DNA from: Ascochyta rabiei
Taxonomy: Eukaryota > Ascomycota > Dothideomycetes > Pleosporales > Didymellaceae
Reading direction: 5' to 3'
NCBI RefSeq assembly: GCF_004011695.2
Contig: NC_082407.1
Location: 1,612,001 to 1,676,000, forward strand
DNA: 64,000 nucleotides
Part shown: piece after piece, positions 34,710-38,586 of the stretch
Numbering within the stretch: the first letter of the stretch is position 1
Layout of the letters: each line of letters begins with the position of its first letter
Notes under the pieces: model-generated
What the model was told of the DNA's origin: nothing
The model's database searches: none
What the model saw: only the letters and a program-made list of their open reading frames with translations
Made by a program: the position numbers and the translations under genes

Positions 34710-37700
34710 CTACAATGGACGTCCACCAACGAATTCGCTCCATGTGCGAACTTCGCTGGGGATGCCCTCCTTCTTGGGCAACTTCTCGCTCATACACTGA
34801 GCGAAGAGGACAGCGGTCTGTCGCGTAGTTAGTATCGAGCTATGCGAAGAAAGGGATGACGAGCTTACCTTAGGCTCCATGAACAGAGGAACACCGAAGT
34901 CGACGGCGTTCCTCCTCATGACGTAGTCCTCGTCGAGCAGTCCGTTGGCCCTGAACTTGGCCAAGTTGAAGCAACCACGAATGTCGTTCTTCTCAAATAC
35001 CTCACGGAGTGCACGCTTGTCTTCCTTGGGGAAAGCAATGACCTCGACGTTGACGCCCTCAACGTTCTTCTCGAGCAGAGCCTTGACGTTTTCGTTGGCG
35101 GCGAGGAACTTGTAGCCAAGTGTATGGATGTACTTGGCGATCTGGATCAAGGAGTTGGAATGAAGAGATCCAGATGTGACGTCTCCACCGAAGAGGAGAC
35201 CCTCACCAGGCTGAGGAAGGCGGAAGTTCATCTGCGACTGAGCAGATACCCAGTATGCCTCGATGAGGTCCTTACCAAAGCAGGCCATCTCACCAGTAGA
35301 GGACATCTCAACACCAAGGTAGGGATCGGCACCAGCCAGCCTGGTCCACGAGAATTGGGGAACCTTGGTAGCAACGTAGTTGCGGTCAATCTTCATGAGG
35401 TCAGTGGGCTCGGGCACCTCGCGACCGACAAGGGCCTTGGTGGCAACATCGATGAAGTTAGTACCAAGGACCTTGCTGACGAAGGGGAATGAACGAGATG
35501 CACGGAGGTTACACTCAATAACCTTGAGCTTAGGCTCAGCGCCCTCAACCTCCTCCTTGATGATCTGCATGTTGAAGGGACCGGTAATGTTCCAGGCCTT
35601 GGCGACCTTGTCGGCGATCTCCTTGACACGCTCCTGAATCCTGGCCTCGAGGTTGACAGGAGGAAGGACAAGCGTGGCATCACCAGAGTGAACACCAGCG
35701 TTCTCGACGTGCTCACTGACGGCGTGGACGAGGACCTTTCCGTCGGAGGCTACAGCGTCGCAATCAATCTCCTGAGCGCCATCGATGAACTTTGTGATGA
35801 CGACAGGGTGGTCTGGCGAGACTGAAGATGCAGCAAGCAACTTCTCCTGGAGCTCATCCTCGCTGCGGATGACGGTCATGGCAGCACCCGAGAGGACGTA
35901 GGACGGGCGGACGAGGACAGGGTATTGAACGTTGTCAGCGAATTTCTTCGCCTCCTCGTATGAGGTCAGCTCCTTCCATGCGGGCTGATCAACACCGATA
36001 GAGTCAAGGATGGAAGAGAACTTGTGACGATCTTCGGCCTTGTCAATGTCGTGGGGGTCAGTTCCGAGGACCTTGGCCTTTCCAGATTCCTGAAGCTTCA
36101 AGGCGATGTTCTGAGGTAGCTGGCCACCAACCGAGACGACGACACCCTGGGCGGTCTCCAACTCGTAGATATCCATGACGCGTTCGTAGCTCAGCTCCTC
36201 GAAGTAGAGCCTGTCAGCGACATCGAAATCAGTACTGTGGTGTGTGTCAGCAGGTTTCGTGTAGGGAAAGAGGGATTACGTATATAGGTCTCTGGATTCT
36301 GAGTCATTGTTAGCATTTCATGTATACCATTGGCGAATACAATAACTTACGTAGTTGATCATCACAGTCTTCTTGCCGAGCTTGTTGAGCGACATGGTAG
36401 CATTTACAGCGCACCAATCGAATTCGACAGAACTACCAATACGGTAGACACCACTACCAAGGACGAGGATACCATGGTCATCGAACGAGACGTCGTGGGA
36501 GGAGGCGTTGTAGGTGGTCTAATGTTGTCAATTAGCGACTGCGACCAGAAAACACCAACACCAACGACAACATCCGAAAACCCAATATTCCGCGACAAAA
36601 GGAACTCAAATACTTACATAAAGATAGTTCGTCTCGGCTGGGAATCTATTGACGTTAGTGGATATAAAGCAGTGTATGAGTGGGTGTTCGTACTCAGCTG
36701 CCAATGTGTCAATCCTCTTGACCCAAGGCTTGATGCCGAAGCTCTTCCTGCGCGCGCGAACCTCATCTTCGGAGCTGTTGACAGCCTTTGCAATTTGCTT
36801 GTCGGAGAACCCAAGCTTCTTGGCCTTGAGGATAATTTCCTTCTTCAGACCAAAGAGGCTGCCAATCTCCTCGAGCTCCTTTGTGCAATCGACAATGTTC
36901 TGGAGCTTGTACAGGAACCACTTGTCGATCTTGGTGAGCTCGTGCACCCTGTCGACAGTGTAGCCTTCGTGGTACATGGCCTGACCAACGGCGAGCCATC
37001 GTCGATCCGTAGGGTTTGCAAGTTCGTCGTCGAGGCTCTCGCCGTACTTCTCGGCCTGGAAACCGAGGAACTTGGGGTCGACCTGTCGGCAGGCCTTCTG
37101 GAAAGACTCTTCGAATGTACGTCCAATGGCCATAACCTCGCCGACAGACTTCATGGAACTGCCAATGTCACGCTTGACATTCTGGAACTTGCTGAGATCC
37201 CATCGGGGCATTTTTGTTACGACGTAATCGAGCGAGGGTTCGAAGTTGGCGGTGGTGGTCTTGGTAACGGCGTTGGGTAGCTCAGGCAGGGTGTGTCCGA
37301 GACCAATCTTCGCAGCAGTGTAGGCCAAAGGGTAACCGGTGGCCTTGGAGGCCAAGGCAGACGAACGGGACAGACGGGCGTTCACTTCGATGACCCTGTA
37401 GTCGAGGCCATCGGGCTGGAGGCAGTACTGAACGTTGCACTCGCCAACGACGCCCAAATGGCGCACAATCTTGATGGAAGCAGATCGGAGCATGTGGTAC
37501 TCCTCGTCACTGAAGGTCTGACTAGGCGAGACAACAATGCTGTCACCGGTGTGGACACCGAGAGGATCGAAGTTTTCCATGTTGCAGACTGTGATACAGT
37601 TATCAGCCGCATCACGAACGACTTCGTACTCGGCCTCCTTCCAACCCTTCAACGACTTCTCGACCAGAATCTGGGGAGAAAGTGTGAGCGATCGGGCGGA

Positions 37701-38586
37701 CAAGTTCCTGAGCTCCTCGGCGTTGTTTGCGAAACCAGATCCAAGACCACCGAGCGCGTACGCAGCGCGGACGATGATAGGGTATCCGACCTTCTCGGCG
37801 GCATCGAGAGCCTCATCGACAGTACCGACAGCAATCGACTTAGCGATGGGAATGTCAATCTCGTCCAGTGCCCTCGCGAATAGATCACGATCCTCGCTGG
37901 TCTCAAGTGTCTTGACGCTTGTTCCAAGAACCTTGACACCGTATTTCTCGAAGAGACCCTTCCTATTCATTTGCACGCCCAAGTTCAGTGCAGTCTGACC
38001 ACCGAAGGACAGGAAAATGCCGTCAGGCTTCTCCTTCTGAATGACATATTCGACGTATTCGGGAGTGACCGGCAGGTAGTAAATTTCATCGGCGAGCACG
38101 TGCGATGTCTGAATGGTCGCAATATTGGGGTTGATCAGAACCGAGTGTACCCCAGCCTCCTTGAGAGCCTTCAGTGCCTGAGAGCCTGCGTCGTAGATTA
38201 GTATACAGTCATGTTCTTCGGTGCGCCAAGACATTTCTGCACATACCTGAGTAGTCGAACTCTCCGGCCTGTCCAATGCTAAGACCTCCGCTGCCAATGA
38301 CTAAGACCTTTTTCACGTCGACCAAATTGCGGGCACCAGAAATGGCGCCGCTGTTGAGGTAGGCTTGCGCATTCGGTGCCTCTTGTGTCTGGTTGAAAGT
38401 CGCAGAGACCTTTGTGAAAGCGCGCAGCTGACGGTATGTCGCAGTCGAATCACCCTTCGCGCGGAGAGAGGTCAGAGGACGAGCTGTACGGGATGTGAAG
38501 CTTCGTGCAAAGACAGAGGGTGCAATGCTACGAAACTGGCCCGCCGAAGTAGGTACGCGACGTGCCAGTCGTCCGCAGAGAGCCAT
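34710..38586 (-). CDS. CPA2: Arginine-specific carbamoyl-phosphate synthase large subunit
   Basis: Makes carbamoyl phosphate for arginine synthesis, with ammonia from a separate small subunit. Seven exons: 38247-38586, 36694-38185, 36618-36645, 36351-36518, 36284-36298, 34869-36236, 34710-34817; 1172 residues. The Arg/Ser-rich, acid-poor N-terminus ([29 protein letters not shown]) is a mitochondrial presequence. The two ATP-grasp halves are complete ([21 protein letters not shown] and [20 protein letters not shown]), followed by a C-terminal MGS-like regulatory domain. Exons 3 (28 nt) and 5 (15 nt) are microexons encoding FPAETNYLY and NPETY, both in strongly conserved stretches. Intron 5 (36237-36283) starts AT and ends AC; the other five introns are GT-AG. 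No alternative GT-AG choice keeps NPETY joined to [14 protein letters not shown]. Confidence 0.95.
36237..36283 (-). other. Candidate AT-AC intron in CPA2
   Basis: Read on the minus strand, the 47-nt interval starts ATACGTAATC and ends ACACACCAC, with CTGAC 8-12 nt before the 3' end as a plausible branch site. Exon 5 ends ACC TAT (T-Y) and exon 6 begins AGT ACT GAT TTC (S-T-D-F), giving the family-conserved NPETYSTDFD. The length is not a multiple of three, so retention shifts the frame. The donor looks like the common fungal GTACGT with its first G changed to A, pointing to U2-type rather than U12-type splicing. Confidence 0.7.

Follow-up and report, generated by a model that had tools for sequence, protein, structure and literature searches.

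Passages of two papers describe AT-AC introns of the U2 type, among them intron 21 of the human SCN4A gene and cases in C. elegans (PMC2831892, PMC3033335). The U2-type AT-AC introns of sodium-channel genes are thought, in the text cited here, to have descended from U12-type introns by a rare conversion, and for a U2-type AT-AC intron to become another subtype, its termini are held to need simultaneous mutations (PMC2831892). For U12-type introns, the consensus given is ATATCC at the donor and CCTTAAC at the branch site (PMC3033335). In yeast, an organism without a U12 spliceosome, an AT-AC junction is spliced in SUT635, and the section describing this calls AT-AC the most efficient pair after GT-AG (PMC6726248). 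According to a survey excerpt, AT-AC introns make up 0.019% of annotated fungal introns (PMC7072748).

Here we describe a candidate of this kind in the CPA2 gene, coding for the large subunit of arginine-specific carbamoyl-phosphate synthase, of the ascomycete Ascochyta rabiei. The gene lies in a stretch of 64,000 nucleotides that was analysed as a whole and is called the window below. Judged from the sequence and from the conservation of the encoded protein, a 47-nt piece of CPA2 is probably an AT-AC intron of the U2 type that the major spliceosome removes.

The CPA2 gene and the 47-nt piece

Once four GT-AG introns and the candidate piece are removed, CPA2 reads as a single open frame of 1189 codons; when the fifth GT-AG intron is removed as well, the protein has 1172 residues (Table 1). 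The five other introns are 48, 51, 52, 61, and 99 nt long. As the 51-nt last intron is free of stop codons, a gene finder may retain 17 extra residues there. TIGR01369 was matched by the downstream CPA2 open reading frame (ORF) and by P0001, which together with P0004 from Didymella heteroderae is the closest homologue among the matches listed. P0001 is an uninterrupted ORF of 1171 aa on a contig of 3771 bases and is therefore probably the spliced transcript of a relative; it reads NPETYSTD. Outside the candidate piece CPA2 is open, 95% identical to P0001, and carries no other lesion.

Table 1. Features of the CPA2 locus, in positions of the window.
Feature	Position	Strand	Basis or remark
CPA2, large subunit of arginine-specific carbamoyl-phosphate synthase	34710..38586	-	ATG (38586) to stop (34710); five GT-AG introns plus the candidate
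Upstream GT-AG intron, 52 nt	36299..36350	-	GTAAGT...CTAAC...CAG; from the sequence
Micro-exon, 15 nt	36284..36298	-	AAT CCA GAG ACC TAT, encodes NPETY; sequence, and NPETxSTD in 194 of 198 homologue representatives among the matches listed
Candidate U2-type AT-AC intron, 47 nt	36237..36283	-	ATACGT...CCAC; the only known splice pair that keeps NPETYSTD
Branch-site-like CTGAC	36246..36250	-	branch A at 36247
AG directly after the AC	36235..36236	-	AT-AC reading: bases 1-2 of the Ser codon; proposed history: ancestral acceptor
Competing GT-AG splice, 45 nt	36235..36279	-	GTAATC...CACAG; would shift the frame
Exon from STDF to the last intron	34869..36236	-	begins AGT ACT GAT TTC (STDF); from the sequence
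Last GT-AG intron, 51 nt	34818..34868	-	17 residues absent from P0001; stop-free if read through

The piece between the micro-exon and the codons for STDF reads ATACGTAATCCCTCTTTCCCTACACGAAACCTGCTGACACACACCAC. Taking the stretch from the end of NPET to the Asp codon of STD, we enumerated all joins that are in frame, stop-free, and remove at least 25 nt. Exactly 4 of the resulting 172 joins yield NPETYSTDFDVA; each removes 47 nt, and they differ in register alone (AT-CC, TA-CA, AT-AC, and TA-CA). AT-AC is the single register of the four with a known pair of intron ends, and in the predicted message it would leave ...ACCTAT joined to AGTACTGAT. No GT-AG join giving NPETYSTD was present among the 172 joins in the assembled sequence, and each of the nine GT-AG pairs that we listed either breaks the frame or removes the motif. 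The nearest of these, GTAATC...CACAG, has its donor 4 nt within the 47-nt piece, pairs with the adjacent CACAG, and shifts the frame, with a stop 20 residues on as counted from NPET. An AC-AG join yields NPETYITD, with Ile in place of Ser. The enumeration thus confirms what an earlier note on this DNA had stated from the letters alone, namely that the 47 nt from ATACGT to CCAC must leave the message if NPETYSTD is to be encoded, and that no GT-AG pair keeps the peptides on both sides.

The motif itself is conserved. The best 120 of 7996 and the best 120 of 7990 proteins gave 198 distinct representatives, and NPETxSTD was found in 194 of them (among the matches listed); a stricter pattern, which also required the residues after the motif, was found in 192 of the 198 listed matches. 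All 194 motif-bearing homologues among these matches have Ser, though the pattern left this position free. The other four (P0004, P0017, P0050, and P0175; again among the matches listed) have no NPET because their models are garbled at the motif site; in practice gene finders stumble here, with the micro-exon lost or garbled in 4 of 198 homologue models. The model of P0008 is without NY, just beside the NPETY micro-exon. Counting these five entries, annotation fails repeatedly at this site: in the public CPA2 models of several Dothideomycetes, the micro-exon or what adjoins it upstream is missing or garbled.

A search of the genome with P0001 returned the pieces of CPA2, two long matches on contig 16 (62% and 48% identity), and three weak or short matches; by this search CPA2 is present in a single copy. 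The contig-16 matches carry aspartate carbamoyltransferase and MGS-like domains, and the motif there reads NPETVSTD. A second copy supplying the function of CPA2 was considered and rejected, as the aspartate carbamoyltransferase domain identifies these matches as the pyrimidine enzyme. By eye, this paralogue (approximately positions 1319918-1323428 of contig 16) has an intron at the position of CPA2's upstream intron (NY/NPET, the slash marking the junction) and continues through NPETVSTD without a second one.

Splice signals and splicing machinery

The candidate donor ATACGT has G at +5 and T at +6. The CTGAC that the earlier note had pointed out near the 3' end is present; from its branch A it is 10 nt to the AC end and 12 nt to the AG end. 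In the five GT-AG introns of CPA2 the distance from branch A to 3' end is 9-13 nt, and all five have G at +5. Read from the sequence, donor positions +3 to +6 are of the kind ordinary for the major spliceosome, and so are the CTGAC branch site and its distance from the 3' end. Among 300,000 random sequences of the window's composition, 10 combined AT and AC ends with RNGT at donor positions +3 to +6 and CTRAY within the final 20 nt, any of the four registers being allowed.

For comparison, 264 kb of the genome were scanned for introns. The stricter scan demanded RNGT and CTRAY, so that both features are built into its 17 GT-AG introns; 2 of the 17 measure 47 nt. A scan with a looser donor, in which CTRAY was again required, gave 24 introns, a set that overlaps the first; CTGAC lies near the 3' end in 12 of them, and G occupies +5 in 17 of the 24. 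The length of the candidate had been said to equal that of other introns here, which holds for the two scanned introns of 47 nt but not for the other introns of CPA2 itself. No further AT-AC intron was found in the 264 kb (0 vs 17 GT-AG). The flank filters of the scan would also miss the CPA2 case, and the scan is therefore of little use for judging how frequent AT-AC introns are; the other 126 end pairs tested in it gave 0 to 9 each, which is its noise level.

Spliceosomal RNAs were searched for in the whole genome (40,901,820 bases, 23 contigs) with Rfam thresholds, including the minor-spliceosome RNAs for which the earlier note had suggested a search. U2 (144 bits) and U6 (92 bits) were found above threshold. 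With the same method, none of the four minor RNAs reached its Rfam threshold anywhere in the genome: U12 and U6atac gave weak matches alone (best E 0.61 and 0.16), and U11 and U4atac gave no match at E up to 10. U1 was matched at E 4.7e-14 but with 62.9 bits vs a threshold of 69.5; two U1-like loci open with ACTTACCT. Since U1 itself falls under its threshold, a divergent RNA could be missed, and the absence of the minor RNAs is no proof. From these sequence searches, the major spliceosome is the likely machine for the candidate intron.

The genome also holds a second U6 snRNA-like gene (contig C9, 1076009-1076174, plus strand), which is interrupted just after ACAGAGAA. Its insert resembles an intron of the mRNA type (GTATGT...GCAG); the first U6 gene is uninterrupted.

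Relatives, rival explanations, and a possible origin

Pattern scans for DNA of relatives in collections of viral and genome contigs gave 0 matches, and relatives were read by means of protein fragments predicted from DNA in its unspliced form. When the downstream ORF was used as query, NPET.ST was present in 104 of the best 120 of 735 matches and absent from 16. One of the 16, P0203, has 487 aa and is 95% identical to CPA2 over 458 residues and 95.8% identical to the D. heteroderae model. It reads ...KTNLCF upstream of its Ser and stops at EPKVS, which coincides with the last CPA2 intron, and we therefore take it for an unspliced exon. Because the Phe codon (TTY) before its Ser ends in neither AG nor AC, no AG is available but that of an AGY Ser codon, and its acceptor must be TTY-AG/Y, splitting the Ser codon. 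A by-hand check for a micro-exon in another frame of the P0203 N-terminus gave no match fitting both sides. Nor does an xAG codon precede Ser in P0233 (Asn), P0251 (Asp), or P0266 (Met). Two fragments with Tyr ahead of Ser, P0206 and P0317, are ambiguous; in P0240 and P0291 a different residue takes the Ser position, which means another phase or a change; and in P0280 the break comes before Tyr. ETYSTD is kept, with the break further up, in P0204, P0210, P0215, P0249, P0258, P0277, and P0281.

The annotated model of D. heteroderae joins EFD-C-TDFD, and its Cys codon must end in a single base after AG, that is, in the same AG/T phase as in P0203. The relatives thus point, at the level of sequence, to a canonical acceptor at AG/Y. 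The comparison with related species that the earlier note had proposed could in this way be made for the acceptor side alone, from protein fragments and one annotated model. In the window the AG/T is still present, directly after AC. Its 5' side differs: the expected exon-final AG followed by GT is absent, and TAT is followed by ATACGT.

The interpretation of the earlier note is supported in two respects: NPETYSTD is kept by AT-AC alone among joins of known chemistry, and the signals are of the U2 type. The origin that it proposed is not supported. A GTACGT donor was held to have mutated to ATACGT, with a compensating change of AG to AC, but P0203 and the D. heteroderae model use AG/Y, and that AG still stands in the window. 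The ancestor may instead have been an ordinary GT-AG intron that interrupted the codon for Ser, TAY AG/GT...AC AG/T, the AG/GT donor being deduced from the relatives' sequences. Loss of two bases at the 5' AG/GT junction would have left AT, turning AG/GT...ACAG into AT...AC/AG. The 3' cut would then have moved two bases up to the pre-existing AC, and the old AG would have entered the exon. Frame and Ser would both have been restored in a single mutational step, with the AC in place and no compensating mutation. A two-base loss is simpler than two matched substitutions, whether it took place in the genome or is a fault of the assembly.

In splicing of the resulting intron, U1 and U6 would recognise AUACGU much as they do GUACGU. 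At the second step of splicing, the A at the start would go with the C at the end, instead of G with G, and the spliceosome would take the AC and skip the AG two bases downstream. In 1993 Parker and Siliciano reportedly observed such an interaction between the first and last intron bases with engineered mutants in yeast, a first-base A going with a last-base C (cited in PMC6726248).

An assembly or sequencing error is the main rival, as a loss of two bases from the assembly would look identical to a real one. The true intron would then be GT-AG, splitting the Ser codon, with two bases of the 5' junction missing from the assembled sequence. The AG/Y 3' end of the relatives makes a canonical phase-2 intron the expected state, and a two-base loss at AG/GT would produce the 5' side seen here. 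Yet the error would have had to strike at one exact spot, in a gene with no other lesion, and AC would have had to stand just before the acceptor. The latter seems uncommon: none of the 17 and none of the 24 introns in the overlapping scan sets end in ACAG, as against one of the five GT-AG introns of CPA2. We consider such an error unlikely, though it deserves serious attention. A true loss of function, in which GTAATC...CACAG is used, the message is frame-shifted, and CPA2 activity is absent or very low, appears considerably less probable still. This is the sole GT-AG pair with a donor after NPETY and an acceptor at the start of the next exon, and by ordinary splice rules it would compete with AT-AC. 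It stands against this reading that GTAATC lacks the +5 G (but so do 7 of the 24 introns of the looser scan) and that CPA2 was found as a single copy, intact elsewhere along 1172 codons. Loss of CPA2 should cause a need for arginine, as known from fungal arginine mutants, and we count this against it too.

The remaining registers are in frame as well. AT-CC and TA-CA would encode NPETYSTD, but we know of no splice chemistry for such ends; AC-AG would keep the old AG acceptor at the price of Ile where Ser stands in every motif-bearing homologue among the matches listed. Use of any of them is very improbable. The AT-AC ends would suit a U12-type intron removed by the minor spliceosome, but the donor is ATACGT rather than ATATCC, the branch site CTGAC rather than CCTTAAC (consensus as given in the text of PMC3033335), and U11, U12, U4atac, and U6atac were not found above threshold in the genome. 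On these three grounds we rule this type out for practical purposes.

Against these alternatives, the U2-type AT-AC intron is the reading that we favour. Points against it are the competing GTAATC donor, the great rarity of AT-AC among annotated fungal introns, and the canonical acceptor to which the relatives point. If it is correct, CPA2 could be a natural case of U2-type AT-AC introns arising from GT-AG introns in one step, by a two-base loss and a slide of the cut within ACAG, with the protein unchanged. We put this forward tentatively, as a possibility to be taken seriously rather than an expectation. Equally tentative is the suggestion that such a route needs neither paired simultaneous substitutions nor a U12 ancestor. 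A literature search, covering open-access papers, found no earlier statement of the two-base route.

Comparison with known AT-AC introns

If real, the CPA2 intron would by its sequence belong with the U2-type AT-AC introns. Unlike the mutants of Parker and Siliciano, it is a natural sequence, in which the C would already have been in place. It shares the AT-AC ends with SCN4A intron 21 and the AT-AC introns of C. elegans, whose removal is the work of the major spliceosome, or is attributed to it, in the passages cited (PMC2831892, PMC3033335). The sodium-channel AT-AC introns described there also have G at +5, as in the ATACGT of CPA2 (PMC2831892). In contrast to them, CPA2 lies in a genome in which minor-spliceosome RNA was not found above threshold, and a close relative shows a canonical acceptor. 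The two-base route would avoid the simultaneous terminal mutations invoked in the text of PMC2831892. If true, the case would show a simple one-step route to U2-type AT-AC introns where no RNA of the minor spliceosome was detected and a close relative retains the canonical acceptor; the route could be tested across many fungal genomes.

The fungal AT-AC introns counted in the survey excerpt are also rare, and that set rests on annotation, whereas the CPA2 case rests on a conserved protein motif (PMC7072748). In yeast, a fungus that lacks the U12 spliceosome, AT-AC ends are used in SUT635 and RPL30 (PMC6726248), and CPA2 would resemble them in this. The SUT635 protointron, however, is non-coding and also uses GT-AG, and AT-AC in RPL30 is an alternative use, as the same section describes (PMC6726248), whereas in CPA2 the AT-AC join is needed for a conserved motif of the protein.
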